From Acidobacteriota bacterium (lineage in GTDB: Bacteria > Acidobacteriota > Thermoanaerobaculia > Gp7-AA8), in the NCBI GenBank assembly GCA_021781455.1, contig JAJXWV010000064.1:1-64000 (forward strand): a DNA stretch of 64,000 nt, read 5' to 3'. A program made the position numbers and the translations under genes. This document shows, piece after piece, positions 37,727-58,405 of this stretch. The stretch's first letter is position 1. Each line of letters begins with the position of its first letter. The notes under the pieces are model-generated. The model was given only the letters and a program-made list of their open reading frames with translations, ran no database searches and was not told the DNA's origin.

Positions 37727-37778
37727 GGAGCGTTGCCACTGTGCTCGACTTGACGGATCATTGCCCCCGGGCTCCAGA

Positions 37779-38837
37779 GTGAGTGGTTCGGAACAGACAT
37801 CCTCGGCAGTCGGATCGAATGACCGGCTCCTCAGCGACATCGTCGCCCTGATCCAGCAGCTGACAGGGCGCGATGTTCGCAGCGGCAGCCGCGCCGACCT
37901 GTTCGCCGGCGCGTTTTCGGCTCTGTTCGAGTGCATGCCCTTCGACGTGGCCGTGGCCGTCATGCTGGAGCAGAACCTCGACCTCTACGTTTCTACGCGG
38001 GCCGACGGAAACTCGTTGGTGGACGAGTCGCTGATCAACCGGGTCCGCGAGACCCTGCAGAAAGTCATTCCGGCCTCATTTGCAGCCACGGACATCGTGG
38101 TCATGTCCGAGAGCCACGATCTTCCCGCTGGCAGCAGCAGTCAGAGTCTGCGTCATCAGGCCTACGCGATCCTGACCCTGGACGGGCGGACGGCCGGCCT
38201 CCTGGTGGTCTATCGCGATGATCCGCCCTTCAGCCCCGGACACGAACAGGTCGTGGAGATCTTCACGGCCCAGATGTCGTTGCTGATGGCCAATCTCAGC
38301 GCCCGCGAGCAGATCCTCAATCTCGCCGACACCGATTACCTGACCGGCATCTGGAACAAGCGATCGCTGCGGCGGCAGCTCCTTCAGGAGATGGAACGCG
38401 CACGCACGTTGAAAGTGCCCCTGGCCGTTCTCGTGCTCGACATCGACGATTTCAAGCAGATCAACGACACGCTGGGCCACACCATCGGCGACGTCGTGCT
38501 GTCGGAGTTCTGCGGCGCGGTTCGTGAGTCCCTGCGGCCGCCCGATTTCTTTGCGCGGTTCGGCGGCGACGAGTTCGTGGTCATCCTTCCGCACACGGAC
38601 CGCGACGGTGCCGAAGCCGTGGCCGAGCGGATCCTGGAGAGGGTGCACGGCCTGACGATCATCACGGACGAGGAAACCGCGGTGCGTTGCTCGGTGTCGA
38701 TCGGCGTGGGGACGTTCCGGGTTCAGGACAGCAGCGCGAACGACATGCTGCGGCGCGCCGACGAGCGCCTGTACATCGCCAAGCGCCGCGGGAAGAATCG
38801 AGTGGTGGCCGACGACGTTCGCGGCGAAGAGCGATAG
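37779..38837 (+). CDS. Diguanylate cyclase with N-terminal GAF-like domain
   Basis: About 352 aa. The N-terminal ~165 residues look like a GAF sensor (FECMPFDVAVAVMLEQ, AYAILTLDGRTAGLLVVYR), joined by a helix to a complete GGDEF domain: DTDYLTGIWNKRSL, LDIDDFKQINDTLGH, RFGGDEFVVILP. An RPPD stands five residues before GGDEF, i.e. the product-inhibition I-site. It synthesises c-di-GMP. GTG at 37779 is favoured; an in-frame TTG lies at 37761. It is divergent from the PIG-L/GT2 operon, so c-di-GMP may link to surface glycan. Confidence 0.9.
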   Translation: MSGSEQTSSAVGSNDRLLSDIVALIQQLTGRDVRSGSRADLFAGAFSALFECMPFDVAVAVMLEQNLDLYVSTRADGNSLVDESLINRVRETLQKVIPASFAATDIVVMSESHDLPAGSSSQSLRHQAYAILTLDGRTAGLLVVYRDDPPFSPGHEQVVEIFTAQMSLLMANLSAREQILNLADTDYLTGIWNKRSLRRQLLQEMERARTLKVPLAVLVLDIDDFKQINDTLGHTIGDVVLSEFCGAVRESLRPPDFFARFGGDEFVVILPHTDRDGAEAVAERILERVHGLTIITDEETAVRCSVSIGVGTFRVQDSSANDMLRRADERLYIAKRRGKNRVVADDVRGEER

Positions 38838-40550: not shown

Positions 40551-40556
40551 TACAAT
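40551..40556 (+). promoter_or_regulatory. -10 element TACAAT before accC
   Basis: CGACTACAAT places TACAAT eight bases before the GTG at 40565. The same ten bases occur ahead of the pseudokinase gene at 42604-42613. Confidence 0.6.
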
Positions 40557-40564
40557 GCCCCGCC

Positions 40565-42064
40565 GTGAAAGTGCTGGTAGCGAACCGCGGCGAGATCGCC
40601 GTGCGCATCATTCGAGCCTGCCGCGAGCTCGGTTACCCGACCGTGGCCGTGTATTCGGAGCCCGATCGTGCCGCGCTTCACGTGGTCTATGCAGATCAGG
40701 CCATTCCGATCGGTCCGGCACCGTCCCGCGAGAGCTATCTGCGCATCGATCGGATCATCGACGCGGCGAAGACGACCGGCGCCGACGCGGTCCATCCCGG
40801 ATACGGCTTCCTGGCGGAGAATGCCGAATTCGCCCGCGCCTGCCGCGATGCCGGCCTGCTGTTCATCGGCCCCTCGCCGGAGTCCATCGACGCCATGGGG
40901 TCGAAGACCGAGGCGCGTCAGCGGATGAAGGCGGCCGGAGTGCCGGTCGTGCCGGGCCTGACCGAAGCGGTGAAATCGTTCGACGAAATTGCCGCGTTCG
41001 CGGCGCAAGCCGGTCTGCCGATCATGATCAAGGCGGCCGCGGGCGGTGGCGGCAAGGGCATGCGCCTGGTTACCCGCGAAGACGAGCTCCGCCAGGCCTA
41101 CGAGCGGACGACGAGCGAGGCTGCGTCGTTTTTCGGCAATCCGGCCGTGTATGCGGAGAAGTTCGTGGAGTCGCCGCGGCACATCGAGGTACAGATCGTC
41201 GGCGACCAGCATGGCAATCTGGTCCACCTCGGTGAGCGCGAGTGCACTCTGCAGCGCCGTCATCAGAAGGTCGTGGAGGAGTGCCCGTCGCCCGTCGTCG
41301 ACGAGGAGCTTCGCCAGCGTCTCGGCGCCATGGCCGTCAAGGCGGCCGCGGCGGTGAGCTACTACTCCGCGGGAACGATCGAATGTCTCATGGGGCCTGA
41401 TCGCCAGTTCTATTTCCTGGAGATGAACACGCGCCTGCAGGTGGAGCACCCCGTGACCGAGATGGTCTGGGGCGTCGACCTGGTGAAGGCGCAGTTGCTG
41501 ATCGCCCAGGGCGGCAAGCTGCCGTGGCGACAGGAACAGCTCAAGCCGAGCGGCCACGCCATCGAATGCCGCATCTACGCCGAGGATCCGGCGAGGAAGT
41601 TCGCGCCGTCGCCAGGGCTGATCCGGTACATGAACCTGCCGCAGGGTCCGGGCGTACGGAACGAGAACGGCGTTTATCCCGGATACACCGTGCCGGTGTT
41701 CTATGACCCGATGCTGTCGAAGCTCGTCTGCCATTCATCCACTCGTGCCGATGCCATCGAGCGGATGAAGCGGGCGCTCATGGAGTACCGGATCCAGGGC
41801 ATCGAGACCACGATTCCGTTCTTCACGTTCCTGATGAACCATCCCGATTTCCGTGCGGCGCGGTTCGATACCGGATTCATCGACGGGCTCCTGCCGCAGC
41901 TCGCCTTAGGCCCGAACCGCCTCGACCGCGAGCGCGTCGATGCTGCCATTGCCGCCGCGGCGATCCTGGCGTTCGAAGACGCTGAACGCGTACAACTGCC
42001 GGCTGACCAGGATTCGCAGTGGAAGCGGGCCGGCCGTGAAGAAGCCGTGCGGGGGGGCCTGTGA
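40565..42064 (+). CDS. accC: Biotin carboxylase subunit of acetyl/propionyl-CoA carboxylase
   Basis: A 499-aa ATP-grasp enzyme that carboxylates biotin. KVLVANRGEIAVRIIRACRELG is the family start, GGGGKGM the glycine-rich ATP loop, GERECTLQRRHQKVVEECPSP and FLEMNTRLQVEHPVTE the active-site blocks. GTG at 40565 fits the conserved N-terminus; the frame is open further upstream but that part is not conserved. About 50 residues longer than AccC of fatty-acid synthesis, so a propionyl- or methylcrotonyl-type role is equally possible. Overlaps the carrier gene as GTGA. Confidence 0.93.
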   Translation: MKVLVANRGEIAVRIIRACRELGYPTVAVYSEPDRAALHVVYADQAIPIGPAPSRESYLRIDRIIDAAKTTGADAVHPGYGFLAENAEFARACRDAGLLFIGPSPESIDAMGSKTEARQRMKAAGVPVVPGLTEAVKSFDEIAAFAAQAGLPIMIKAAAGGGGKGMRLVTREDELRQAYERTTSEAASFFGNPAVYAEKFVESPRHIEVQIVGDQHGNLVHLGERECTLQRRHQKVVEECPSPVVDEELRQRLGAMAVKAAAAVSYYSAGTIECLMGPDRQFYFLEMNTRLQVEHPVTEMVWGVDLVKAQLLIAQGGKLPWRQEQLKPSGHAIECRIYAEDPARKFAPSPGLIRYMNLPQGPGVRNENGVYPGYTVPVFYDPMLSKLVCHSSTRADAIERMKRALMEYRIQGIETTIPFFTFLMNHPDFRAARFDTGFIDGLLPQLALGPNRLDRERVDAAIAAAAILAFEDAERVQLPADQDSQWKRAGREEAVRGGL

Positions 42065-42558
42065 AGCTGATCGCCCGCTACGAGGACACCGACATCGCGG
42101 TCGAGGTGGAGCGGCACGCAGACGGTTATCGCGTCACCCTCGGCGATCGTTGCTTCAGTGTCGACCTGGTGCACGCCGGCCGATACGTGCGGTCCCTCCG
42201 ACTCGAGGACGGTACGCAGTACAGCCTCGTGCACAACCGCATCGGGAACATGCACGAGATCATGATGGGCGGATCGAGGATCGAAGTGGAGATCATCGAT
42301 CCCCTCGCTCTGCGCCGGAAATCGCGTGAGGATGCCGGAGGGGAAGGCGGCGTCGTCAAGGCGCTGATGCCCGGCCGGATCGTGCGCATCCTCGTCGAGT
42401 CGGGTCAGGCGGTCGAGAAGGGCACTGGTCTGCTGATTCTCGAAGCGATGAAGATGGAGAATGAAATCCAGGCGCCCGTCGACGGCACGGTGGCGGAGAT
42501 CTTCGTGAAGCCGGGTGACACGGTCGAAGGCGGCGCAGCGCTGGTTCACATCGACTGA
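42061..42558 (+). CDS. Biotin carboxyl carrier protein
   Basis: A 165-aa carrier. The biotinylated Lys is in the classic EAMKMEN motif near residue 140; VKALMPGRIVRILVESGQAVEKG and APVDGTVAEIFVKPGD are the lipoyl/biotinyl fold. The N-terminal ~85 residues resemble the linker domain that precedes BCCP in propionyl-CoA carboxylase alpha chains, here split from its carboxylase into a separate gene. No carboxyltransferase is in the window. Confidence 0.9.
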   Translation: MKLIARYEDTDIAVEVERHADGYRVTLGDRCFSVDLVHAGRYVRSLRLEDGTQYSLVHNRIGNMHEIMMGGSRIEVEIIDPLALRRKSREDAGGEGGVVKALMPGRIVRILVESGQAVEKGTGLLILEAMKMENEIQAPVDGTVAEIFVKPGDTVEGGAALVHID

Positions 42559-42607: not shown

Positions 42608-42613
42608 TACAAT
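42608..42613 (+). promoter_or_regulatory. -10 element TACAAT six bases before a start codon
   Basis: TACAAT ends 6 nt before ATG 42620, within the same CGACTACAAT word found before accC. Confidence 0.6.
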
Positions 42614-42619
42614 ACTGGC

Positions 42620-45481
42620 ATGTCCGCAATCGATCCGCTTTCCCCCGGGAGCGAGATGGAGCCGTTCCGGTTCACGGAACGGCTGGGCTCGTCGGTCTGG
42701 AAGGCGGAAGACAGCAGAAGCGGAAAGAGTGTTGCGGTCAAGGTGCTCACGCGCCAGCTTCCGAGGGAAGCGGCGCGGCGCGAGCAGGTCATCCGAGAGG
42801 TGCGCCTGGGCGCGGCTCTCTATCACGCCTTTCTCGTTCCCATCCTCGATGTCGTCGTCGCCGGCGACGCCCTCCTGCTGGTCATGGAGCTCCTCGACGT
42901 GCAGCCCCTTTCCGCGTATCTCGGCGGAAAGCCGCGCTCCCGCGTCGAGTTTTTCCGGAGCGCCTACCAGATCGCGGATGTGCTGAAGCTCCTTCAGGCC
43001 CGCAACATGGTCCACGGCAACGTCAACGGTGACTCGGTGATGATCGCGCCGACCGGTCAGATCCGGCTCGGCGGGCTCAACGCCCTGAATCTCCTTCAGC
43101 GAAAGGAGGGGACGTCATCGGGGGCCTACCAGCAGAAGGGGAGCGATCCGAGAACGGTCGCCTACATGGCCCCCGAGCAGATCGCCGGACAGGCCGTCGA
43201 TGCGCGCACGGACGTGTTTTCCCTCGGCGTCGTGCTTTACGAGATCGCCACCGGCGCGCTGCCGTGGAACGCGACCACCGCCGGTGACCTGGCGCGCGCG
43301 GTCGTCGAGGGGCAGCCGCAATCTCCGCATGCGCGCAATCCTCAGATCGCCGCCGACGTCATGGGCGTCATCGGCCGCTGCCTGTTCAAGGATCCCTACC
43401 GCCGGCATAAAGACGCCAAGGCAGTCGCCGACGACGTCGTCAAGCTCGATCCGGAGGCGCTGAAGTTCGCGACCGAGCTTGCCAAACGGACCAACACCAT
43501 CGTCCCGGCGCAGGTCGCCAGTGACGCGCGTTCCGTGATTCTCCTGCTGGGCGACATCGTCGATTACGACCAGCTTTACGCCACACACCCTGATACAGCC
43601 ATGCAGGCCGCGGCGCGAATGCAGCAGATTCTCAGCGAATCGGTGTACCTGTTCGACGGGAAGATTGCCGATCCGTTCGGCTCGAGGCTGATGGGCGAGC
43701 TGCCGACCGTGGAAGCGGCGATCGAAGCGGGACGAAAAGCGGAATTCGATTTCTCCCCCGATCAGCAGGGCGACAATCTCATCCAGGTACGGCTCCTCCT
43801 TCACGCCGGTGACATCTCGACGAAGGACGGCGCACCCAGCGGCGACTGCATCAACAAGGGATTCGCCGCCCTTTCGCGCCTGCCGCCCTTGCAGCTCTTC
43901 ATCAGCGAAGACTTCGTGAAGAAGGGCCGCGGTAATCTGCGGCTTCGTGACGCCGGCGCGCGCGGCGGCCTCAAGCTGTACGAGATCGCGCCGGCCGAAC
44001 CGGTGCCGGAGCCGGCGACCGCACCCGTCGAAACGGTGGCCGCGGTGGATGACGCCGGAGCTCCGCCCATGGTTCCGCGTCGCCACCGCGCTCTGCGATG
44101 GTCGGCTCTCGGTCTGGTGCTGCTGCTCGCGGGCATCGGAGGAATCGTGCTGAGCCGGCGGCATCGTTCGAATGTCGCGGCGCCGAGCGTGGCGGCCAAG
44201 CCGGTTGTCCAGTATCCGCGCACGCTGGTCATCGACGGCTTTTCCGCGGAGGGTGCGGACCCGGCGATGCTCGAGCGCGCCCAGGCCATTCGACTGGCCT
44301 CGATCGAGATCCTGCGCAGCGTGCCCGATCTTCATATTCTCGACGCGCCCAGCGGGGATGCCGTCACGGTGAAGGCGATGATCCGGGCCGGTGCCGCAGG
44401 ACCGGAGATCGTCCCCACTCTCAGCGGCCCGCACCCGGCCACGGGAGCGGCCACGCCGGCTCCCGACGCAGCGGCCGGCGTTGCGGCCATCGTTCAGTGG
44501 ATCGCCGCGCAGGCTCACGTTCGTGCCACCACGCCCCCGCCCGATGCGCTGAACGCATTCGCCGACGCTCTGACCGCACGACAGAACAAGGACGACGCAA
44601 AATACGAGAGCTCGCTCCGCGCGACCACCACAGCAGATCCGAACTTCCTTCCCGCGCAGCTGATGGCAATGGCCTTTTTCGAATCCAAGGGCAACGCCGC
44701 CGACGCGTTCGCCGCCGCAAAACAGGTCTTTGCTCTCGCCCCCGATCGCGTGGACACCGCGAGGAAAGTCGCTGCGGGCGGTCTTGCGTCCGGCGACCTG
44801 GGCCTCGCATTCAGCGCCTACCGTGCGATCCTCAAGAACCAGCCGAATGACCCGGAAGCGTTGAACATGATCGGCCGCTACGCTGCGTCTGTTGGCGATG
44901 CTGCTCGCTTTGGCGCAGTCCTGAACCGGCTGAAGAGCGTTCCCGCTGTCGAGCGCGCCGTTCACGAGCCCGATCTGCTCGTCGCCTCCGGAAAGATCGA
45001 GAGCGCCATCGACCAGTACTACAACATCGAAGTCGACGTGCCGAACAACCCGGCACTGTCGCTCAAGATCGGCCGCATCGCGGTCTTGCGGCATACGATG
45101 CCGATTGCCGAGCTCGAGCTCGGAAAACTGCAGAAGTCCGATCCCGGATATGGATATCCGCTGCTGAAGGCGTACGTTGCCGCGCAGCAGGACTCGAAAG
45201 CCGGCGCGGAAGCGGAATTGAAATCGGCGCTGGCGGCCTCGCGCCCGGGCGACGACTACTGGACCAGCGCAGCCGAGGTCTACGCCATCCTTGGCGACAG
45301 CAAGGCCGTCGTCGACTCACTGCAGAAAGCCGCCGACCGCCGCGAGCCGACCATGGCCTACATCCTCACCGACCCGCTTTTTAACTACCTGGCGAACGAT
45401 GCAGGTTTCCAGGCGGTTCGTGCCATAGTGGCCCAGCGCCAGCAGGAGATTCGTGCGGCGCTCGCCCAGGCACCGATCTAG
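42620..45481 (+). CDS. Pseudokinase / cyclase-like / TPR membrane protein
   Basis: A 953-aa protein. Residues 15-275 have the bacterial Ser/Thr kinase fold: Lys41 in VAVKVL and YMAPEQ (182-187) are present. However the catalytic HRD is HGN (132-134), DFG is GGL (151-153) and the glycine loop is degenerate, so phosphotransfer is unlikely. Residues ~304-455 resemble a class III nucleotidyl cyclase domain (SVILLLGDIVDYDQLY, LLLHAGDIS, SGDCINKGFAALSRL, LFISEDF) but the second metal Asp is not evident. One membrane helix spans ~492-512, followed by a ~440-residue outer part with TPR-like repeats. It may act as a ligand-sensing scaffold. Confidence 0.85.
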   Translation: MSAIDPLSPGSEMEPFRFTERLGSSVWKAEDSRSGKSVAVKVLTRQLPREAARREQVIREVRLGAALYHAFLVPILDVVVAGDALLLVMELLDVQPLSAYLGGKPRSRVEFFRSAYQIADVLKLLQARNMVHGNVNGDSVMIAPTGQIRLGGLNALNLLQRKEGTSSGAYQQKGSDPRTVAYMAPEQIAGQAVDARTDVFSLGVVLYEIATGALPWNATTAGDLARAVVEGQPQSPHARNPQIAADVMGVIGRCLFKDPYRRHKDAKAVADDVVKLDPEALKFATELAKRTNTIVPAQVASDARSVILLLGDIVDYDQLYATHPDTAMQAAARMQQILSESVYLFDGKIADPFGSRLMGELPTVEAAIEAGRKAEFDFSPDQQGDNLIQVRLLLHAGDISTKDGAPSGDCINKGFAALSRLPPLQLFISEDFVKKGRGNLRLRDAGARGGLKLYEIAPAEPVPEPATAPVETVAAVDDAGAPPMVPRRHRALRWSALGLVLLLAGIGGIVLSRRHRSNVAAPSVAAKPVVQYPRTLVIDGFSAEGADPAMLERAQAIRLASIEILRSVPDLHILDAPSGDAVTVKAMIRAGAAGPEIVPTLSGPHPATGAATPAPDAAAGVAAIVQWIAAQAHVRATTPPPDALNAFADALTARQNKDDAKYESSLRATTTADPNFLPAQLMAMAFFESKGNAADAFAAAKQVFALAPDRVDTARKVAAGGLASGDLGLAFSAYRAILKNQPNDPEALNMIGRYAASVGDAARFGAVLNRLKSVPAVERAVHEPDLLVASGKIESAIDQYYNIEVDVPNNPALSLKIGRIAVLRHTMPIAELELGKLQKSDPGYGYPLLKAYVAAQQDSKAGAEAELKSALAASRPGDDYWTSAAEVYAILGDSKAVVDSLQKAADRREPTMAYILTDPLFNYLANDAGFQAVRAIVAQRQQEIRAALAQAPI

Positions 45482-45495
45482 CCTCAACATCGAAC

Positions 45496-45906
45496 ATGAT
45501 CGTCACAGCCAGACTGACCTTCTCCGCAGCGCACCGTCTGCACAACCCGGAGCGCGATCCCGACTGGAACCGCCGCACATACGACAAGTGTGACAACCCC
45601 GGCGGACACGGCCATAACTACGTGATCGAGGCCAGCGTTCAGGGAAAGATCGATCCGGAAACGGGGATGGTCATCGATCTCAAGCGGCTCAAGGACATCA
45701 TGCGCGAACGGGTCGTCGACCGCGTCGATCACAAGAATCTCAATGAGGACGTGGAGTTTCTTCGCGGCGTGATCCCCACGGCCGAGAATCTGGCCCGGGC
45801 CTTCTGGCGCGAACTGGCGCCGGCCATTCGCGAGGGCGAGCTCTGCGAGCTGGTGCTGCGCGAGACGGAGCGCAACTCGGTCCGTTATCGGGGAGAAGAC
45901 GACTGA
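45496..45906 (+). CDS. 6-pyruvoyl-tetrahydropterin synthase / 6-carboxytetrahydropterin synthase family
   Basis: A 136-aa enzyme acting on dihydroneopterin triphosphate. Zinc ligands are His13 (FSAAHRL) and His38/His40 (GHGHNY); the catalytic Cys32 is in YDKCDNPGGHGHNY; PTAENLA and the RETERNS Glu complete the site. Whether it makes the queuosine precursor (QueD) or a pterin cofactor cannot be decided, since no queC/E/F or pterin genes lie nearby. Confidence 0.88.
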   Translation: MIVTARLTFSAAHRLHNPERDPDWNRRTYDKCDNPGGHGHNYVIEASVQGKIDPETGMVIDLKRLKDIMRERVVDRVDHKNLNEDVEFLRGVIPTAENLARAFWRELAPAIREGELCELVLRETERNSVRYRGEDD

Positions 45907-49319: not shown

Positions 49320-49541
49320 GATCAGCGGAAGTCAGTCGATACGATCATCGAACGCGCGGAAAGGCCCGTGTAATGGCGTCTTAAGCGGCTTTCGAACGCG
49401 TCCGTCGTGGGTGCTCGCGAAACGCGGCGCCCGCTGATCAGCGGAAGTGGTCGCGAACAGCGGAAGTTGAAGGTAAGTCGCGATGCATGGGGAGGTTGGG
49501 CGCGCGCGGAGCGGGAATGAGGGCGAGCGATCAGCGGAAGT
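49320..49541 (+). repeat. Candidate transposase-binding end repeats
   Basis: GATCAGCGGAAGT occurs at 49320-49332, 49436-49448 and 49529-49541, and as GAACAGCGGAAGT at 49455-49467, all in the same orientation. A weaker CGGAA-TCTTT match is at 49181-49191, about ten bases inside the proposed end. Several similar sites at irregular spacing inside the phage end is the layout of Mu attL/attR. Confidence 0.65.
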
Positions 49542-49995
49542 TTTTTATTACAGACGTCTCTAATTGAGCCGTGAAACGTCCGAGCATCGCTTTCTGACCT
49601 TCGATGACCTTGATCGCGTCGCCGATCGTCTGAGGGAACGCCTTCCTACACTGCCGGCGGCTGAAGGCCATCTGAGCCGCGAGAGAGGAGAAGCCGGGCT
49701 GTCCCGCGGCGGCCGATGCGCTCGCGAGCTCCATGTAGAGCGCGGCGATCTTCGACTGCTGCTCAGGCGTGATCGTGCCGCGCCGCTTGTTCGCCTGGCG
49801 CCGCTTCTCGTGAGCGAAGCTCGTGAAGCCGAGGTGCTCGAAGCGGCGCATCAGTCGATCGAATCCTTTTTCGTCGAGGTCGCGCGCCGACGCTACGCCG
49901 GCTTCGGCATGCAGGATCGCCCGGTAGCTATCCTCGTCGAGCGCGAGACGGCTCTTGGCGACGTGGACGAGGGCGATCTGCGCGTGAGTGATCAT
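49531..49995 (-). CDS. GemA-like phage regulatory protein (DUF1018)
   Basis: A 154-aa protein. MITHAQIALVHVAKSRLALDEDSYRAIL and the SARDLDEKGFDRLMRRFEHLGF segment match the Mu gp16/GemA family that modulates host gene expression. The ATG overlaps the DUF5131 stop by four bases. It is the last gene of the early operon and ends beside the phage end repeats. Confidence 0.75.
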   Translation of the reverse strand: MITHAQIALVHVAKSRLALDEDSYRAILHAEAGVASARDLDEKGFDRLMRRFEHLGFTSFAHEKRRQANKRRGTITPEQQSKIAALYMELASASAAAGQPGFSSLAAQMAFSRRQCRKAFPQTIGDAIKVIEGQKAMLGRFTAQLETSVIKNFR

Positions 49996-50999
49996 CGCCG
50001 GAATTCCTTCCACTCGCGGCCGTCGAGAAGGCAACCTGCCACTTTCTTGCCGACGCGGGTGATACCGATCGCGTCGAGGGAGTGGCCCGGCGGCGGCACA
50101 TCCCCAACCGGAAAGAACCGACCATCCTGCTCGAGCCAGTGGGAAATAGGGGAAAGATCGGATCGGTCGAGCGTGCGTCGCCACTCGCCCCACTGCTTGA
50201 AGAAGAACGGCACGTGGGCGGCCTGGCACTGATCACGGAGGGAGCGTGCCCAGTCGGGATGCATCGGGCGGGCGTGCGGGCCTGACTCACCGCCGACGAT
50301 CACCCAATCGACACGCGGGACGTAGTAGCACGGCCGCCCCATGTCGGTCTGCTCTCCCGTGAGCGCATCGACCTGATAGAAACCATCGGGCGCGTCAGCG
50401 TGCGAGTCGACGTCGACATATCGCAGGTTGACAGCGCTGAGCAGCGGCTCAAGCGACAAGAAACGGACGACCGCGGGAATCCGGAGAACGTGGCCGAGCC
50501 GCTGCTCAAGTGTCTCCTGATTCTCTGCGCTGCCGCCGATCCAGACGTGCGGGGGTGCGATGTCGTCGTCGATCCACGCGTCGAGCATGACGCAGCCGCG
50601 GGAGTACTCGCGCACGGCTTCGAGGCGCCGGCGGAAGTTCTCCGGCCGTTTTGTCAGCAGCAACCAATCGAGTGCGGTGCAGTCCTCGATGTCACAGAGC
50701 AGGCCATAGAGCCACGGGATCGGCACCTCATCGTCGAGCCAATCGCCGAGCGAGAGCGGGAAGACCCGCCGACGAACGCCTTCACGCTTCGCGGCCTCGT
50801 TCCACTTGTACGGGAGATTTCGATACGACTCAGCAGCGAGCACGCGCTCAGCGCCTTCTCCCCAATGGCCGAGGACCTTCGGATTGCGTTTGCTCTGCGT
50901 CTCCGCATAGCAGTGATCGCACCCGGCGCTCACGTGCCGGCAGCCGCGCCAAACGTTGTAGGTTTGATCAGTCCACTCGATCTTCGAGTTCTCACCCAT
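49992..50999 (-). CDS. DUF5131 (phage Gp37/Gp68) family protein
   Basis: A 335-aa protein. IEWTDQTYNVWRGCRHVSAGCDHCYAE carries Cys20, Cys27 and Cys30, the radical-SAM-like C-x6-C-x2-C signature of this family; WVIVGGESGPHARPMHPDW and VPFFFKQWGEW are further family blocks. Common on phages; the enzymatic role is unknown. Cargo or early function in this prophage. Confidence 0.85.
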   Translation of the reverse strand: MGENSKIEWTDQTYNVWRGCRHVSAGCDHCYAETQSKRNPKVLGHWGEGAERVLAAESYRNLPYKWNEAAKREGVRRRVFPLSLGDWLDDEVPIPWLYGLLCDIEDCTALDWLLLTKRPENFRRRLEAVREYSRGCVMLDAWIDDDIAPPHVWIGGSAENQETLEQRLGHVLRIPAVVRFLSLEPLLSAVNLRYVDVDSHADAPDGFYQVDALTGEQTDMGRPCYYVPRVDWVIVGGESGPHARPMHPDWARSLRDQCQAAHVPFFFKQWGEWRRTLDRSDLSPISHWLEQDGRFFPVGDVPPPGHSLDAIGITRVGKKVAGCLLDGREWKEFRR

Positions 51000-51342
51000 T
51001 CTTCTTCCCGAGCTCCTTCATGACTTGTTCGAGGTGGGCGCGCTTTGCGGTTTTCGGATAGCGGGCGAGCGCGATCTGGCGGCTGATCTTCGAGGACGTA
51101 GAGGCCGACGCCGGCGCCTCACGCTGGAAGGTGCAGTGGTTCGGGAAATGCGGCTTGTAGAACTTCAGGCCGCTGAAGGCGTAGTGAGCGAGCTCAGAGC
51201 GCTTGCAGACACGGCCGCTTGTCCCGCCGAGGATCACGACCGTGCCGTCGTTGTGTGGAACGGCCTCGATCGGGAGCTTCTTGCCGGTGTCCTCCATCGT
51301 GATCCAGAGGAGCTCGACGCCACAATGAGGGCAGGTGCTCAC
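50992..51342 (-). CDS. Phage protein with N-terminal CxxC, unknown function
   Basis: About 116 aa from the GTG at 51342, which overlaps the preceding stop as GTGA. It begins STCPHCGVELLWITMEDTGKKLPIEAVPHNDGTVVIL; another Cys and a His lie later (HFPNHCTF), so a zinc site is possible. The C-terminus is Lys-rich. Confidence 0.65.
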   Translation of the reverse strand: MSTCPHCGVELLWITMEDTGKKLPIEAVPHNDGTVVILGGTSGRVCKRSELAHYAFSGLKFYKPHFPNHCTFQREAPASASTSSKISRQIALARYPKTAKRAHLEQVMKELGKKNG

Positions 51343-51626
51343 TGCGTCCTCTCTTCCGCCGCCGGCTTCTCGCGAGGCTCCCAATCACTGCCGTGGTCGA
51401 AGCTCATGGCCCGCTGTTCCAGGCCGGGGCCGTAGAACTCCAACTCAGTCAGGCCGCACGCGCGGAGTATCCGGTGGAGGGTTACGACCTTGAGTGAGGA
51501 GATCCGCCTTCCGGTCTCCCACGAGCTGAGCGTCCGGTGGTTGATGTGTACTTCCCGCGCGACCTGCTTCTGAGTGAGCCCCGCCAGGCGGCGCGCCTCG
51601 CGCAGACGAAGAATCAGATCCATCAT
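51339..51626 (-). CDS. XRE-family HTH protein
   Basis: A 95-aa DNA-binding protein with LREARRLAGLTQKQVAREVHINHRTLSSWETGRR as a complete HTH. The tail is acidic. ATG 51626 overlaps the upstream stop by four bases (a second Met follows). Function in the lytic/lysogenic circuit is likely but unspecified. Confidence 0.8.
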   Translation of the reverse strand: MMDLILRLREARRLAGLTQKQVAREVHINHRTLSSWETGRRISSLKVVTLHRILRACGLTELEFYGPGLEQRAMSFDHGSDWEPREKPAAEERTQ

Positions 51627-51997
51627 CGCTTCACCTCGATCTCCAGTTGCCCGACGATCGGGCCGACGACTGAGCTGTTGCGGTAGGCGCGGGCGTGCTT
51701 CAGGTTCGAGACGCCGCGCCGGATGAAATGCTGATAGTTCTCTTCGAGCTCGCGCTCGTTGCGGATGACGTAGTAGCCGAAAGGCCGCGAGGTCGCGGTC
51801 CCGATCGGCCAGGAGCGCTCCTCGACGAGGAACTTCACGAGCGCCTGCACGTCGCGGCTGCTGATCCCGAGCTCGTCCGCGATCAGATGCATCGAGACGG
51901 CGTTCTCGCGGCCCTGGTGGGCGCGGAGGATGAGCAGCACCTTCGCGGCCTTCGCTCGATCCGGGGCCGGCACGAGGCTGAGCTGCTCGCCGGTCAT
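51623..51997 (-). CDS. Winged-helix-like phage protein
   Basis: A 124-aa protein. The segment KVLLILRAHQGRENAVSMHLIADELGISSRDVQALVKFLVEE is a probable winged-helix DNA-binding fold with FGYYVIRNERELEE as the wing. ATG at 51997 overlaps the previous stop (ATGA). Confidence 0.65.
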   Translation of the reverse strand: MTGEQLSLVPAPDRAKAAKVLLILRAHQGRENAVSMHLIADELGISSRDVQALVKFLVEERSWPIGTATSRPFGYYVIRNERELEENYQHFIRRGVSNLKHARAYRNSSVVGPIVGQLEIEVKR

Positions 51998-52296
51998 GAC
52001 ACGCTCCGCATCGTCGCGCCGCGCTCGTGCAGCCACGCTCGCAGCACGATCATTCCGTCCGGCGTGGGCTGGTAGAAGTAACGCCGCTTGCCGGCGAGCC
52101 GCGTGACGAGATTGCGATCGAGGAGCGATTGCAGATGGCCGTACCACTCCCAGATCTCGCGCGGCCAGTCCGCGCACGCCCACTCAGGCAGACGCTGAAC
52201 GACAGATTCCCGCAGCTCGACGGCCGAGATGCACCCGTGGTCGACGATCACCGCGAGCATAGCGATGGCGCAGAGCGAGAGATCGTCACTCGACAC
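51994..52296 (-). CDS. Small winged-helix-like phage protein
   Basis: A 100-aa protein. GTG at 52296 is selected because GGAGGT lies five bases ahead. GHLQSLLDRNLVTRLAGKRRYFYQPTPDGMIVL is typical of the recognition helix and wing of a winged-helix domain. It resembles the next gene in outline; both may derive from one duplication. Confidence 0.6.
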   Translation of the reverse strand: MSSDDLSLCAIAMLAVIVDHGCISAVELRESVVQRLPEWACADWPREIWEWYGHLQSLLDRNLVTRLAGKRRYFYQPTPDGMIVLRAWLHERGATMRSVS

Positions 52297-52570
52297 GTGA
52301 GACCTCCTGGCGTACCGCATGGGTGCGCGACTCCCGCAGCGCGTTCTTTCCTGCCTCGGTGATCGACGCGACCCAGCCGCGGCTGGCAGAGATCAGATAG
52401 ATGAGATCGCACTTGCGCAGATGGTCGAGCGTGAGCCAGAGCTCGGTCGCCGGCATGCGCGCCTCGAAGTGCTGTTCGAGCGCGTTGACGTTGACCGAGC
52501 CGCAGCGGCTGATCGCGTCGAGGACATCTGCGGGGCGAGGATCGAGAGGCTTGCTCATCGGGCTGCTCAT
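52286..52570 (-). CDS. Small winged-helix-like phage protein
   Basis: A 94-aa protein. LWLTLDHLRKCDLIYLISASRGWVASITEAGKNAL again looks like a winged helix. The start ATG at 52570 lies at the end of a 37-bp hairpin element that is repeated upstream of the next gene; a second Met is five codons in. Confidence 0.58.
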   Translation of the reverse strand: MSSPMSKPLDPRPADVLDAISRCGSVNVNALEQHFEARMPATELWLTLDHLRKCDLIYLISASRGWVASITEAGKNALRESRTHAVRQEVSRVE

Positions 52571-52597
52571 CAGGTCCGGAGCACCACCTCCGGACGA
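52561..52597 (-). repeat. Duplicated hairpin/ribosome-site element, copy 1
   Basis: This 37-bp element contains GTCCGGA-(8 nt)-TCCGGAC, a perfect 7-bp hairpin. On the - strand the loop and stem hold GGAGGTGG, and the ATG of the 94-aa gene ends the element. Copy 2 is at 52867-52903 with one mismatch. Confidence 0.85.
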
Positions 52598-52623
52598 CCG
52601 CGCGCGTGGCGCGGTTTCGCGTG

Positions 52624-52845
52624 TCAGACGGTGGCCGGCGAGGCGTCGAAGAAGTACTCCTGGCCGGGGACGAAGAACGCGTGAAGCTCTGTCGCGTCGT
52701 TAGCGAAGAGGCTCAGAGCGCCGTTGGGAAACGTCGGCTGCGGCGAGCTCGGATCGGTGGACGTCGACGGCCGTAGCGTCACGCCGCCGCCCTTGTTCGG
52801 CGGCTGCTGGCCGGTCACGGATTCACAGAAGAACTTGAAGCGCAT
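52624..52845 (-). CDS. Small phage protein, unknown function
   Basis: A 73-aa protein with no recognisable motif; the middle is Pro/Ser/Thr/Gly-rich (NKGGGVTLRPSTSTDPSSPQ) and the end is ALSLFANDATELHAFFVPGQEYFFD. An AAGAAGGAG ribosome site precedes the ATG. Copy 2 of the hairpin element lies immediately upstream. Confidence 0.55.
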   Translation of the reverse strand: MRFKFFCESVTGQQPPNKGGGVTLRPSTSTDPSSPQPTFPNGALSLFANDATELHAFFVPGQEYFFDASPATV

Positions 52846-52866
52846 AGTGGATCGATCTCCTTCTTT

Positions 52867-52903
52867 GGCTGCTCATCAGGTCCGGAGCGCCACCTCCGGA
52901 CGA
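52867..52903 (-). repeat. Duplicated hairpin/ribosome-site element, copy 2
   Basis: 36 of 37 bases match copy 1; the mismatch is in the hairpin loop. The ATG at the end of the element here opens only a 17-codon reading frame that overlaps the start of the 73-aa gene. The rest of 52846-52972 shows nothing else. Confidence 0.85.
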
Positions 52904-52972
52904 TCCCGGCGCCCGCGGCACCGGGATTTCACACAAAGCCAGAGTGCTATGAATTGCTCACTGAATAGGGCA

Positions 52973-53503
52973 TCACCTCCGTTTTGAACGCGCAGCCTGC
53001 TGCGCCTCGATGGCCTTGCGGTCAATCGTGAGCTTCGGCTCGTTGCCGGTCTCTTCGATCGTGAAGCCGATCGACTCGCGCTTCGCCTCGGGCACGGGAG
53101 CGGCGGCGAGCGCGTTCTTGTCGACCGTCTCGCCGCGATCCTTCACGACGCCGGCCGCGAAACCGAGCCGCTTGAGGTTCGCGATGAGCTTCACTTCTTC
53201 GATGAGGAACCGCACCGCCTTGCCGACCTTGGTGAACGAGATCGTGCCGAACATGAACTTTCGGCGCTTCGCGTCTCCGAACTCGCGGCGGTGTTTCTTG
53301 GCGAACTGCAGGACCGCGGCCTCACGCTCGGCGCGCTCCTCCTTCAGTTCTTTGATGGACACTGCGGCCTGCTCTTCGATGGCCTGCGTCCGCTTCCTGA
53401 GGGCGTTCTCCTGCGCCTCGATGTCGAGGTCGAGCTTCGCGACCACGCCGATCTCAGCCTCCACGTCCTCCCACGTCGCCAGGGTCCCGGTCTTCTTTTT
53501 CAT
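52973..53503 (-). CDS. Gam-like host-nuclease inhibitor
   Basis: A 176-aa protein of the Mu Gam family, which binds DNA ends and blocks exonuclease, a Ku homologue. MKKKTGTLATWEDVEAEIGVVAKLDLDIEAQENALRKR and FGTISFTKVGKAVRFLIEEVKLIANLKRLGF fit the coiled-coil and beta core. ATG at 53503 is chosen by family length; a GAAAGAG lies just upstream. Confidence 0.82.
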   Translation of the reverse strand: MKKKTGTLATWEDVEAEIGVVAKLDLDIEAQENALRKRTQAIEEQAAVSIKELKEERAEREAAVLQFAKKHRREFGDAKRRKFMFGTISFTKVGKAVRFLIEEVKLIANLKRLGFAAGVVKDRGETVDKNALAAAPVPEAKRESIGFTIEETGNEPKLTIDRKAIEAQQAARSKRR

Positions 53504-53600
53504 CGCTCTTTCATTGCCTCCGCTCTGCCCCCGCGATCCACTCACACCCACCCGCCGCCGCTCCACCCCTCCCCCTGATCGCGGGGACAAACGCAAACAA

Positions 53601-54011
53601 TCAATTGATGACGTGCTGCGCGAACTCCTTCATGCGCTCCATGGCGCGGCGAATCCCCCGGCGATACAGCGCTAAGGAAGACCTGAGGACGATGCTGAGA
53701 GCCGCGCCGCGCTGACCAAGAAAATCGATCGTGTGGTCGGCCGCGTCTTCGCCGAGCGCCTCGCGGAGCCGGAGATCGAGCGCAGCAGCTTCGACCAGAT
53801 CCGTCCGCGAAAGCTTCGTGTCCGCGAGGATCGAGCAGCCGCGCGGGACGCCCTGCGCGTCGTAGTCGATGAGGACCTCGTGAGTCGCGAGGGCCCGGCA
53901 GATCACCTCGATGCAGGTGAGCGGCAGGCGCGTGGCCATCGCATCGAGGGCGCTGCAGGCCGCTTCGCGCTGCTCGCGCGTGAGCTCGGAGATCTCAATG
54001 CGCTCCTGCAT
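53601..54011 (-). CDS. Phage early protein, unknown function
   Basis: A 136-aa mostly helical protein beginning MQERIEISELTREQREAACSALDAMA. No domain recognised. Overlaps the end of the coiled-coil gene by 17 nt. Confidence 0.6.
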   Translation of the reverse strand: MQERIEISELTREQREAACSALDAMATRLPLTCIEVICRALATHEVLIDYDAQGVPRGCSILADTKLSRTDLVEAAALDLRLREALGEDAADHTIDFLGQRGAALSIVLRSSLALYRRGIRRAMERMKEFAQHVIN

Positions 54012-54744
54012 GGTCGCCTCCTTCGATGCTGACCGCGGTCGCGGGCGCCTCTGTGATCAGCGATTTCTGCTGGTCAGGCGGGAGGATCTGCAGCACCTTC
54101 TCGACGCTGTACTTGACGTACACCTCGCCGGCGGGCTTGCGGTAGGTGACGATGTGCATGTCGGCGCGCAGCGCATCGCCAGCAGCGAAGAACACCTTGC
54201 GGGCGGCCATCTCATCGAGGAAGTGCTTGTCGTTGATCGGCGCCTTGACTCGCTCCTCACCGCGCGCGAGCTCCCAATGGTGGCGACCCTCGAAGAACAG
54301 GCCGCGGATCTGGTACGCGAACACCGCGGTGATGTCGGAGATGACCTCGTCTTCTGCTGGCTGAGCGGGCTCTTCGTCGCCAGCCGGCGCATGGATGAGC
54401 GCGAGCTGCGCGTCCTCGTCACGGTCGCGGAGCTGCGCTTCGAGCGTGGCGATGCGCGCGTTTGCTTCTTCGAGCGCGGCCGAGGTTTCGAGGAGCTGCT
54501 CGGCCATCCGCCTCGCGGCGCGCTCGGCTTCGTCGCGGCCGATGATGTTCGACTGCGCGACGTACTTCGCCCGATCGACCTCGATGCGCGCGGCCTTCAG
54601 CTCGCCTTCGAGCTCCGCGTTCTGCTTGTGGAGTGCCGCGAGATCGGCGATGAGCGTGTTCCGCTCGGACTGAAGCCGGTCGACCTGCTCGCGCAGATCG
54701 ACCGTGGGAGTGAAGAAGCTTCGAACGCGATCGAGGATGCTCAC
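53995..54744 (-). CDS. Phage coiled-coil protein, unknown function
   Basis: A 249-aa protein. Residues ~15-110 form a long coiled coil (LREQVDRLQSERNTLIADLAALHKQNAELEGELKAA). The C-terminal ~100 residues look globular (VFAYQIRGLFFEGRHHWEL..., VYVKYSVEKVLQILP). Between MuB and Gam; function unknown. Confidence 0.65.
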   Translation of the reverse strand: MSILDRVRSFFTPTVDLREQVDRLQSERNTLIADLAALHKQNAELEGELKAARIEVDRAKYVAQSNIIGRDEAERAARRMAEQLLETSAALEEANARIATLEAQLRDRDEDAQLALIHAPAGDEEPAQPAEDEVISDITAVFAYQIRGLFFEGRHHWELARGEERVKAPINDKHFLDEMAARKVFFAAGDALRADMHIVTYRKPAGEVYVKYSVEKVLQILPPDQQKSLITEAPATAVSIEGGDHAGAH

Positions 54745-55055
54745 AGGGTCGCCTCCTCAGCCGGTTCGCTCGGCTCCTCGTCGTCGTTGACACCGACGAA
54801 CGCCAGCTTCGACCGCTTCAGGCCGAACCGCTCGCGGAGCTCGCGCATCACGTCCAGGCGGTCGAGCTCCCTCTTCTCGGCGAGCGTGGCGAGCACGCAG
54901 ATCGCCGCTTCGAGATGCGACGCGAGGCCGAGCTGCATGATCGCGACGTCGACGACACGGAGGACCTCGTCGCGTGCCGGCGCGGGGAGAGTGGAGAGCG
55001 CGTTGACGATCTCATCGCGCGCGCGCTGGTTCGGGCGCGTGAGGGCGCGGCTCAT
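54741..55055 (-). CDS. Phage early protein, unknown function
   Basis: A 104-aa helical protein with acidic C-terminus (NDDEEPSEPAEEATL). ATGA overlaps on both sides tie it to the MuB-like gene and the coiled-coil gene. Confidence 0.6.
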   Translation of the reverse strand: MSRALTRPNQRARDEIVNALSTLPAPARDEVLRVVDVAIMQLGLASHLEAAICVLATLAEKRELDRLDVMRELRERFGLKRSKLAFVGVNDDEEPSEPAEEATL

Positions 55056-56080
55056 TCCTCACCTCCGCCGAGCTGCTTGAGCTCACTGATGGCGCGGACG
55101 ACGTGGCCCTTGGTCACGGGCTTGGTCTGGGCGAGCATCTGCGCGATGCGGCAGATGTTGACCACGCGCCGGAACCCGCCGTTATTGGCGGCCTCGTACT
55201 GGAGCATCGCCATCGCCTCGGCAACGACGGCGTCGGCGATCATCTGGCTCGCGACCATGCGGATGTCCTTCGCCGTGATGTCGTGAGCGCCGAGGTGAAG
55301 ACGAGCGACGACGCGGGAGGCGAACTGCGTGTACGCGGTCGAGCTCATGCCGCGGCTGCCGCCGGCGCTGTTGCGGAAGCCCTCGTAGGTCGACTCGTTG
55401 CCGAGGAGGATCAGAGCCACGCGTGCCTGATCGTGGATGCAGCGCAGCTCGTCGATGCATTCCTGGACGAGGAAGTGCGATTCGTCGACGAGGAGAGTCC
55501 GGTCGGTGCCGGCGAGTGCGCTGACGATCTCGCGGCGCGCGTGCGCGGGGCTGCGGCGCCGGCTGTCGTCCTTGGTCACGACCATGCAGAGCTCGGAGAG
55601 CACCGCCCACTTCGTGTTCAGGTCGGGCGCGGCGGAGAAGTAGATCGAGCTGGGGTGCGACTCGCGATAGTCGAAAATCGTCTTCGTCTTCCCGAGTCCG
55701 CTCTGCGTTGCGATGACAGCGACCGCGCTGGTCGCTTCGGCCATAAAGATTGCGCGCTCGATCCGGGCGGCAATCGAGGTCCTGACGTACTTCGGCCCGA
55801 TGCCGATCGACTGCTGCTGATCCCGCAGATCGAGATAGTTCTCGATCGCGAGCGCGACGGCGCTGTTGTCGCCGGCGTAGGTGCCGGCGAGGAACAGCGA
55901 AACGGTCGAGTTCGAGAGGCTGACGCGCTTGGCGACTTTCGCCTGGCTGACCTCCTCTGTATCATTGAGATGCTTTCGCAAGCGGAGTCGGACTCGATCG
56001 ATTCGCTCTGTGGAGAGCGCTGGCGGCTCGTGTGACGACGAGCCGCTTTTTGCTGCGGGGAACGGTTGAACGACGGTCAT
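55052..56080 (-). CDS. MuB-like AAA+ ATPase, transposition target selector
   Basis: A 342-aa protein. An N-terminal HTH (QAKVAKRVSLSNSTVSLFLAGTYAGD) is followed by an AAA+ core with Walker A QSGLGKTKT (126-134) and Walker B TLLVDES (195-201). This is the architecture of Mu B, which binds target DNA and activates the transposase; the gene lies directly downstream of the transposase gene, as in Mu. Confidence 0.9.
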   Translation of the reverse strand: MTVVQPFPAAKSGSSSHEPPALSTERIDRVRLRLRKHLNDTEEVSQAKVAKRVSLSNSTVSLFLAGTYAGDNSAVALAIENYLDLRDQQQSIGIGPKYVRTSIAARIERAIFMAEATSAVAVIATQSGLGKTKTIFDYRESHPSSIYFSAAPDLNTKWAVLSELCMVVTKDDSRRRSPAHARREIVSALAGTDRTLLVDESHFLVQECIDELRCIHDQARVALILLGNESTYEGFRNSAGGSRGMSSTAYTQFASRVVARLHLGAHDITAKDIRMVASQMIADAVVAEAMAMLQYEAANNGGFRRVVNICRIAQMLAQTKPVTKGHVVRAISELKQLGGGEE

Positions 56081-56110
56081 GAAAGTGGGCCTCCTTCTTT
56101 GCCGGCGGCT

Positions 56111-58405
56111 TCAGTCGCCGACGAGCTCGTGGTGATGGGCGAGACAGAACGGGCCGCGCTCGGCCGCGTTCGGGCAATCGAGAGTCGCTGAGCAGAACCC
56201 CGCGTCCTCGCGTTCGCGGCGCCGGCGCTCGTCATCGAGGTTCGCGAGCGTGAGAGTGACGCCGGCCGGCTCCTCCTCGTCGGTGGATCGAACCTCGTCG
56301 TGTACGCGGTGGAGGGCGGCGAGCGCGGCGAGATCGTCCAGCGGTGGCGGCGTGATCGCAGCGGCGAGCTGGCGATCAGCGGGAGTGATGAGACCCGCGC
56401 CGTCGAGACGGTCGCGGTATTCCTCCAGCCGGCGGGCGATCGAGGACTGCGGCAGGAGCACCGTCGCGCCACTCCTCTCCCCTTCTGCCTTGGCGAGGAG
56501 CTGGCGGTTGGCGCCGCGCTCGCGCTCGGCGATCGCCTGGAGAAGGGCGAACCGATTCGCCTTGAAGCTGGCGAGATCACGATGCGCAGAGAGGTTGCCG
56601 AAGAACCGCACCTGGCGGCGCAGCTCCTTGTTGATCCGCGCCTCCTCTTTGAGGTTGCCGACCGTGATCGGGTCGTCAGTGTCGTAGGTCGACAGTCCCC
56701 ATAGCGTCGCCTCGCAAAGGAACGCGCCCTTGCCGGCGCAGCCGCACGCGATCGAGCGCGAGCGGTCGAGCTTGGAGGTGGTGTGTTGGCAGCCGGTGAG
56801 GACGATCGCGCGCCGCACGTCCTCGGGATTGACGAGGAGCTGTACGTTGCGGCCCATCTCGGCGAGCGCGATGGCCGGCTCGGCGATCTGATACTCGTTC
56901 TGCCCAACGACGATCCGGCCGCCCGCGCGCACCTGCCGCGCGTGGTAGTGCCAGAACGCGAGGGCGAACCCCTTCTCGTCCGGATCGCGGCGCGGGATGC
57001 GCGTCTCGGCGAGGACTTCGAGAGGCGACCGGCCGCTCATCGCCTGCCCGCGGTGGCCGCGGCGCATGTTGTACCGGTCGATCTCGGCCGTGAGGAGGGC
57101 GCGGAAGGATTCGAAGTCGAGGAGCTGCTCGGGGTGCTTGTACAACTCGGCGGAGCGTTCTGTGCGCTTGCCGAGCGCGCCGACGTAGGCGGCATTGCCC
57201 GACCAGATCTGACGGACCCATGTGCCGAAGAGGCGTTCGATGTTCTTCGAGCGCGCGCGCCGGGGAATGGCGAAGATGATGCGCACGCCGAGCGACGCGA
57301 GGAGATTGTTGAGGTAGTCGTCGTTGAACGGAGTGGCCTCGCCGCGGCGGATCGCGCGGCCGAAGGCGGATTTGAAGTCCTTCCCGTTGTCGACGTAGAC
57401 GATCTCGGGCAGCCCGTGTGCCTCGATGAGCTGACGGAGCGCGCGGAGGATCGTGTCGGAATTCGGATAGCTGAGCGAGGCGATCCACGAAACGACCGCG
57501 CGCGAGGCGACGTCGATGAACACCGTCGTCCAGACGCGGTGACCGTGCTTGCATCCGTCCGGGCCGCAGATCGTGCCGCCGCAGCTCACCCACAGATCAG
57601 TGATGTGGTGATCCGCCTGGACGATCTTGAGTGCCGGGAAGTTGTAGTCGCGGCGGATCGTGACGAGCCAGCGCTCGTCGTGATCCTGATCCTCACGCGT
57701 CGCGCGGCGCACAGCGTCCGGGATCTTCTCGGCGAGGCGATAGAACGCGTTGTCGGCCGCGGGCAGCTCGACGTGCACAACCTCTTCCGCCCACATTCTG
57801 GTGTCGCGGATCGCGTCCGCAATCGAGGGTTGCTCGCCATCGGTGTAGCGCGACCAGAAGAATGCGCGGGCACGCTCGGGAATCACGCCTTTGTCGCGGC
57901 GGCTGGAGCCGTCGATCCGGTCGACGAGGCCGTCAATGCCATAGGTGCGGTACGCAGTCGACCAGCGCTCCAGCGAGGACCTCGAGATCGCGCCGACGTC
58001 GGGATTCGCGGCTCGATACTGCTCGACCCATCGTTCGCGCGCTTCCCTGACTCCGCGCTGCGAACCCCACTCGCGCGTGAAGAGGTCGAAGGCAACGACG
58101 GCGGCCATGCGGCACGACGCGCGCTGGCGCTGGTTCTCGGTGGCGTTCTCGAACGAGAGAGTCGGCGGGATGAAGCCAGCGGCGTCGGCCAATGCGGGCC
58201 GCGTTAGGTCGGGATGAGCTTGGAGGTAGCGCACCTGCGCGTCGGCCGGGAGGTTCTCCAGTGCAACTTCGATGGCGTTCGCGTTCCTGCCTCGAACAGT
58301 GCGGCGCGGCTCACCATAACGGCCGCTCGACGCGGCCTGTCTGATCCACCGCTCGGTTACGCCGAGCAGTGCAGATGCGGCATCCGTTGGCAGCCAGATG
58401 GTCAT
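56111..58405 (-). CDS. MuA-like DDE transposase
   Basis: A 764-aa transposase. An N-terminal Mu-type HTH (LPTDAASALLGVTERWIRQAA) is followed by a second DNA-binding part and the catalytic core. Probable DDE residues are Asp265 (IVQADHH), Asp339 (IVYVDNGKDF) and Glu390 (RSKNIERLFG), close to D269/D336/E392 of phage Mu. A beta-barrel domain follows, and the C-terminus has a Cys/His cluster (CSATLDCPN...FCLAHHH) that could bind zinc. Start overlaps the upstream gene by four bases. Confidence 0.93.
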   Translation of the reverse strand: MTIWLPTDAASALLGVTERWIRQAASSGRYGEPRRTVRGRNANAIEVALENLPADAQVRYLQAHPDLTRPALADAAGFIPPTLSFENATENQRQRASCRMAAVVAFDLFTREWGSQRGVREARERWVEQYRAANPDVGAISRSSLERWSTAYRTYGIDGLVDRIDGSSRRDKGVIPERARAFFWSRYTDGEQPSIADAIRDTRMWAEEVVHVELPAADNAFYRLAEKIPDAVRRATREDQDHDERWLVTIRRDYNFPALKIVQADHHITDLWVSCGGTICGPDGCKHGHRVWTTVFIDVASRAVVSWIASLSYPNSDTILRALRQLIEAHGLPEIVYVDNGKDFKSAFGRAIRRGEATPFNDDYLNNLLASLGVRIIFAIPRRARSKNIERLFGTWVRQIWSGNAAYVGALGKRTERSAELYKHPEQLLDFESFRALLTAEIDRYNMRRGHRGQAMSGRSPLEVLAETRIPRRDPDEKGFALAFWHYHARQVRAGGRIVVGQNEYQIAEPAIALAEMGRNVQLLVNPEDVRRAIVLTGCQHTTSKLDRSRSIACGCAGKGAFLCEATLWGLSTYDTDDPITVGNLKEEARINKELRRQVRFFGNLSAHRDLASFKANRFALLQAIAERERGANRQLLAKAEGERSGATVLLPQSSIARRLEEYRDRLDGAGLITPADRQLAAAITPPPLDDLAALAALHRVHDEVRSTDEEEPAGVTLTLANLDDERRRREREDAGFCSATLDCPNAAERGPFCLAHHHELVGD

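Follow-up and report, generated by a model that had tools for sequence, protein, structure and literature searches.

What can a protein do that joins a kinase-like domain and a cyclase-like domain, neither apparently able to catalyse its reaction, to a membrane helix and a series of repeats? The question was raised by a preliminary description of one open reading frame (42620-45481) in a stretch of 64,000 nucleotides, here called the window, from an acidobacterial genome of 4.88 Mb in 90 contigs. The predicted product of 953 residues carries, in order, a PknB-like kinase domain, a class III cyclase fold, a membrane helix, an alpha/beta domain and TPRs, which we located as follows:

42620..45481, + strand: gene for the 953-residue pseudokinase-pseudocyclase-membrane helix-TPR protein (open reading frame)
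42653..43462, + strand: predicted pseudokinase domain, residues 12-281 (K41, APE 184-186, D198 and R262 kept; N134 and G152 substituted; Gly loop deleted)
43526..43987, + strand: predicted pseudo-cyclase domain of class III fold, residues 303-456 (D312 and N412 kept; substitutions D351, S355 and A416)
44099..44155, + strand: predicted single membrane helix, residues 494-512 (Kyte-Doolittle peak 2.09)
44216..44515, + strand: small alpha/beta domain of ~100 residues, 533-632 (secondary structure of the model)
44540..45469, + strand: TPR-type helical repeats, residues 641-950, ~310 residues (Pfam, structure matches and model)

A protein search identified orthologues throughout the family: the 17 other genomes each have one, so that the gene is present in 18/18. 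Identity to the window protein was 69% within the genus, ~47-55% for most members and 30-38% for the three most distant; the orthologues in G007 and G012 are truncated at contig ends. An AlphaFold-type model of the full-length protein had a local confidence of 84.4 and a pTM of 0.47, the latter leaving the relative placement of the domains uncertain.

The kinase fold itself was readily recognized. Pfam Pkinase matched residues 24-269 (1.6e-25), PK_Tyr_Ser-Thr matched at 2.2e-27, and Mycobacterium PknB structures matched residues 24-294 at 2.9e-25. Alignment to PknB identified K41 as the beta3 Lys and placed H132-GNVNGD-S139 at the HRDxKxxN position, indicating that the catalytic Asp is replaced by Asn134 and the metal-binding Asn by Ser139. 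The DFG position corresponds to G152-L153-N154, and five of the six positions of the Gly-rich loop are gapped. The kinase was thus read correctly as dead in the preliminary description, which had reported HGN in place of HRD (residues 132-134) and retention of Lys41 and the APE region (184-186). Its reading of DFG as GGL reached the right conclusion, loss of the Asp, from a motif one residue off: G151 lies just before the true motif, GLN.

These losses are shared by the whole family. The HRD Asp was found in 0/18 orthologues (Asn in 16, Glu in 2, as HGN, HLN, HQN or HGE) and so was the DFG Asp, Gly occupying its position in all 18; no conserved substitute acidic residue was found at either motif among the 18. 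The beta3 Lys was present in 18/18, the alpha-C Glu position was acidic in 17/18, and residues of the kinase-fold core (P185 and E186 of APE, D198 and R262) were invariant. Intact HRD/DFG motifs, named in the preliminary description as evidence that would tell against it, occurred in none of the orthologues that it had proposed to survey. The presence of the same losses in all family genomes also ruled out chance or misassembly. Since the PknB R10 position, compared by eye as part of the back-to-back dimer residues, was not conserved, we make no claim of a PknB-type back-to-back dimer. Of the three residues that define an active Hanks-type Ser/Thr kinase (beta3 Lys, HRD Asp and DFG Asp) only the Lys is kept, and the protein falls within the general definition of a bacterial pseudokinase, for which the absence of one or more of the three from a kinase fold suffices (PMC12599244). 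From its residues, the domain is predicted to be catalytically dead.

All 21 further kinases of the same genome that are readable at the three positions have the complete set of Lys, HRD Asp and DFG Asp (this count leaves out the match at C43:181911-182690). Kinase fragments that stop at the end of a contig or of a match likewise retain both Asp wherever these can be read, and L139, a partial match, carries Glu in place of the Lys. Among relatives from elsewhere, the full set is found in 123 of the 129 readable ones. A maximum-likelihood tree grouped the 18 kinase domains of the family in one clade (support 100/99) on a long stem, which suggests a single inactivation followed by vertical descent. 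A separate acidobacterial pseudokinase, L040 (JAJYCN010000055.1), has Asn for the Lys, HGG for HRD and GFG for DFG; behind it lie a membrane helix and what is probably a beta-propeller.

The second domain escaped Pfam, no cyclase family matching any of the 18 members. A profile built from the 18 orthologues nevertheless matched class III cyclases in the PDB (3mr7, 2.5e-7), and an AlphaFold model of the domain alone (pLDDT 90.9) had class III cyclases as its best solved matches in Foldseek, Rv1900c first (E 9.2e-11, TM 0.67/0.73). Structure prediction, one of the checks proposed at the outset, supports the cyclase-like fold that had been suspected.

Catalytic positions were read from the 3mr7 alignment. 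Metal Asp 1 corresponds to D312 (Asp in 14/18 orthologues, Glu in 4/18). The purine-binding Lys is replaced by Asp351, with Asp in 18/18 and Lys in 0/18. Metal Asp 2 is Ser355 in the window protein and Pro, Ala, Lys, Gln or Arg in the others (Asp in 0/18), while the catalytic Arg is Ala416 in the window protein and is found in 0/18. The transition-state Asn (N412) was present in 1/18, the window protein only. The preliminary description had noted one missing metal Asp; that Asp is indeed gone, and the losses extend to the purine Lys and the catalytic Arg. Because activity in class III cyclases takes two metal Asp, the purine Lys, the Asn and the Arg, the domain would be unable to catalyse in any of the orthologues. 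Since metal Asp 2, Lys and Arg are all missing, it should be able to fill neither side of a class III heterodimer, and these residues rule it out as the active half of one. The domain is conserved like the rest of the protein (mean pairwise identity 0.51, against 0.49 for the kinase and 0.48 for the TPR region). Two further cyclase-like proteins were noted: L220 (G000:C43:196383-196925), encoded in the same genome, carries FHA- and GAF-like domains and a class III cyclase that looks intact, and L221 (G000:C40:245572-246006) is short and membrane-anchored, with an unusual first metal motif (VCDVG) together with GD at the second metal site and SRLE.

The membrane helix proposed in the preliminary description was recovered by hydropathy as a single predicted helix at ~494-512, with a peak at the matching place in 18/18 orthologues. 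A second hydrophobic peak, around residue 71, lies within the kinase N-lobe and was read as fold core rather than as a membrane helix. Because the domains ahead of this one helix are of cytosolic type, we infer a topology with the N-terminus inside and the alpha/beta and TPR domains outside. The repeats are of TPR type: TPR_14 was found in 17/19 members (23.7 bits in the window protein, against a cut-off of 23.5), TPR_19 reached 1.8e-12 in other members, TPR structures matched the region at up to 1e-48, and the model shows helix pairs up to the C-terminal end. They cover ~310 residues and not the ~440 first estimated, being preceded by the alpha/beta domain of ~100 residues. This domain had no Pfam match. 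Its topology in the predicted model may resemble that of TolB-N/FlgO-like domains; a FlgO search gave no match anywhere, its controls being likewise silent.

The gene has been maintained as a single copy. The cyclase profile matched exactly once in each genome of the order, and reading frames were intact over their full length, or up to the contig end, in 18/18 genomes. Nei-Gojobori omega was 0.11-0.27 in six of the seven close pairs where it was defined and 0.5-0.6 in the remaining pair, G009/G016, values that are rough at a dS of ~0.8-1.8. We conclude that the gene is under purifying selection. A profile of the C-terminal part retrieved the family genomes and a single sister-family genome at 1e-137 or better; it found no further orthologue in a 148-genome sample of the class, where the next match (1e-11) was a generic TPR, and none was found in a 297-genome sample of the phylum.

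The sister-family orthologue (G018, L158:7635-9617, - strand) has the pseudo-cyclase, the membrane helix and the TPRs, and lacks the kinase. Its cyclase is also without metal Asp 2. Like the window gene it lies between accB and queD, starting 10 nt after accB. Pseudo-cyclase, helix and TPRs are thus the core that both families have in common, the kinase having been gained in one or lost in the other; with the sister family represented by one genome, the sample is too small to decide between gain and loss. In other families of the class, inspection of the site downstream of accB revealed different open reading frames.

This conserved setting is made up in the window of the following features:

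40565..42064, + strand: biotin carboxylase accC (NCBIfam accC, 1.6e-192; GTG start, its own TACAAT 14 nt before)
42061..42558, + strand: biotin carboxyl carrier accB, 61 nt upstream of the pseudokinase gene (synteny)
42608..42613, + strand: TACAAT, a -10-type element, 12 nt before the ATG
45496..45906, + strand: QueD/6-pyruvoyl-tetrahydropterin synthase-family gene, 14 nt downstream (TIGR00039, 4e-29, below the curated cut-off; synteny)

All four genes, accC, accB, the pseudokinase gene and queD, run in one direction with short gaps. Of the 16 family genomes with the accB flank available, 14 have accB adjoining the gene, as does the sister family; for queD the count is 16/17. In genus g4 the accCB pair lies ~22 kb off and the gene is still near queD; in G009 it is queD that lies ~7 kb off. 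A TAYAAT sequence was found 12-18 nt ahead of the ATG in 16/18 orthologues, mostly at exactly 12 nt. Only seven occur on both strands of the 64-kb window, one of them at 40551-40556, before accC, and no obvious Shine-Dalgarno sequence accompanies them at the start of either the pseudokinase gene or accC. The element looks like the gene's own leaderless-type -10 element, and leaderless transcripts are probably made in this lineage; co-transcription with accCB need not then be the sole source of its mRNA. A two-hexamer sigma-70 scan found nothing, the conserved -10 becoming apparent only from the comparison of orthologues. Elsewhere in the window, a GGDEF diguanylate cyclase gene (37761-38837, + strand, 2.5e-44) lies just upstream of the triosephosphate isomerase gene, and a Mu-like element (49531-58405, - strand) carries GemA, an AAA ATPase that is possibly MuB-like, a DUF5131 gene and a 764-residue rve-domain transposase that is possibly MuA-like.

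Does the protein belong to a known kind? Seven families of bacterial pseudokinases are distinguished in a 2025 review (PMC12599244). We compared six of them (ActPs1, ActPs2, ActPs3, GLW, DLHK and CP1) by their stated hallmarks; DYD, the seventh, is marked by a family-specific residue pattern. ActPs1, with all three catalytic residues substituted, and ActPs3, with all catalytic motifs lost, are both excluded by the invariant Lys41. ActPs2 is defined by a beta3 Lys to Arg change, a DFG deletion and a long activation-loop insertion; here the Lys is kept, GLN is present and there is no insertion of ~250 residues. GLW has GLW for HRD and Leu or Trp for the beta3 Lys, against HGN/HLN/HQN/HGE and Lys. 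DLHK retains the HRD Asp, absent here, and has no membrane helix; CP1 also has no membrane helix and is linked to a COG3899 ATPase, whereas here a helix is predicted and no such domain was found. On these hallmarks the 953-residue protein belongs to none of the six.

Likenesses of architecture were followed in the same way. The TOMM kinase/cyclase fusion (TIGR03903) also has a kinase and a cyclase annotated in one chain; it was rejected at 46.6 bits against a cut-off of 705.75, the match covering the kinase part only. Hanks-type receptor kinases of Acidobacteria share a kinase inside, one helix and a sensory part outside, and in the same genome several kinase domains precede a membrane helix; unlike the present protein, these kinases are catalytically intact and have no further, dead enzyme domain. 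Two working models come closest, and the protein is a member of neither. In Mycobacterium tuberculosis the pseudokinase of MviN/MurJ (ActPs3) recruits FhaA after phosphorylation by PknB (PMC12599244), and so provides a bacterial pseudokinase in a membrane protein acting as a recruitment platform; ActPs3, however, lacks the beta3 Lys and has activation-loop deletions, and no cyclase or TPR is described for it. In receptor guanylyl cyclases (GC-A, GC-C) an external ligand part and one helix are combined with a cytosolic pseudokinase, which is believed to act as scaffold and transmitter (PMC10400071), and a class III cyclase domain comes after it. Here the order is reversed, pseudokinase-cyclase-helix-outside instead of outside-helix-pseudokinase-cyclase, which excludes membership; in addition the cyclase is dead, TPRs lie outside, the protein is bacterial, and the model has no long helix between pseudokinase and cyclase. 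The words cyclase, TPR and Acidobacter are absent from the 2025 review (PMC12599244), and a partial search of the open-access literature, which counts as weak evidence, returned no bacterial pseudokinase fused to a dead cyclase, in agreement with the earlier impression of an undescribed arrangement. The combination of a transmembrane pseudokinase with a second pseudoenzyme is what seems to be new.

Class III cyclases act as dimers, and the cyclase fold normally dimerises. We think it reasonably probable that the protein is a non-enzymatic, single-pass membrane scaffold or receptor, and the combined losses suggest that two signalling enzymes have been reused as a binding scaffold. The external alpha/beta and TPR part would bind an envelope ligand or protein, and altered spacing or oligomeric state would be relayed to the inside through the single helix. 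In the cytosol, the pseudo-cyclase may hold two chains together, and the pseudokinase, its core kept and its active site dismantled, would offer a docking surface for a client, possibly an active Ser/Thr kinase of the same cell or kinase substrates. The folds and residue losses support the first description of a pair of disabled signalling domains next to a membrane helix and repeats; of the "nucleotide- or partner-sensing scaffold" then proposed, the scaffold is a fair reading and nucleotide sensing finds no support.

Three observations count against a scaffold: the invariant Lys41 is not obviously required by a pure one, the placement of the domains in the full-length model is uncertain, and G009/G016 shows the higher omega. 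One alternative is a nucleotide sensor, in which a dead domain still binds nucleotide and signalling depends on cytosolic ATP, GTP or cyclic nucleotide. Some pseudokinases do bind nucleotides despite missing motifs (reviewed in PMC4718504), and Lys41 (18/18) and the acidic residue at the alpha-C Glu position (17/18) keep the idea alive; loss of the Gly loop, the DFG Asp, the HRDxKxxN Asn, metal Asp 2 and the Arg of the cyclase, and the change of its purine Lys to Asp, make it unlikely. The same Lys could serve an atypical enzyme, with a kinase fold performing a different reaction or Mg-independent phosphotransfer, and kinase-fold enzymes without canonical motifs exist in SidJ and SelO (PMC12599244). 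With the Gly loop deleted, the metal-binding Asp and Asn gone and no conserved replacement acidic residue at HRD or DFG, we give this a slim chance.

Synteny speaks for a local regulator of the neighbouring biotin-dependent carboxylase (AccC/AccB) or of the QueD-family enzyme, given accB in 14/16 family genomes and the sister family and queD in 16/17. The displaced carboxylase pair of g4, the displaced queD of G009 and the gene's own conserved -10 element render this improbable. Because the same genome has an intact-looking class III cyclase and such cyclases are dimeric, the pseudo-cyclase might be the silent half of a heterodimer, pairing with an active partner such as the FHA-GAF-cyclase L220 and modulating it. 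It could supply neither half-site, with metal Asp 2, Lys and Arg missing and the Asn found in the window protein only, and the idea is very improbable. A decaying relic, which two dead catalytic domains might suggest, is scarcely credible for a gene with open frames in 18/18, low omega in 6/7 pairs and a conserved promoter element.

Returning to the membrane scaffold, we tentatively entertain a further possibility: a new kind of bacterial receptor, in which two former signalling enzymes in succession, a kinase and a class III cyclase, lie behind a TPR sensor and are kept for allostery or assembly alone. Such a receptor would mirror the receptor guanylyl cyclases with its topology reversed and both enzyme domains dead, its pseudokinase having been added to an older pseudo-cyclase-helix-TPR protein at the accB-queD locus, or lost in the sister family. 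Few bacterial pseudokinases have been put to experimental test (PMC12599244). The present one, single-copy and inherited vertically, is kept in every family genome examined and is fused to a second pseudoenzyme; the other readable kinases of the window's genome look active, and the sister family provides a natural kinase-less version. The role of a kinase fold after catalysis is gone thereby becomes a testable question in one protein, and animal receptor guanylyl cyclases, with their pairing of pseudokinase and cyclase, gain a bacterial counterpart for comparison.
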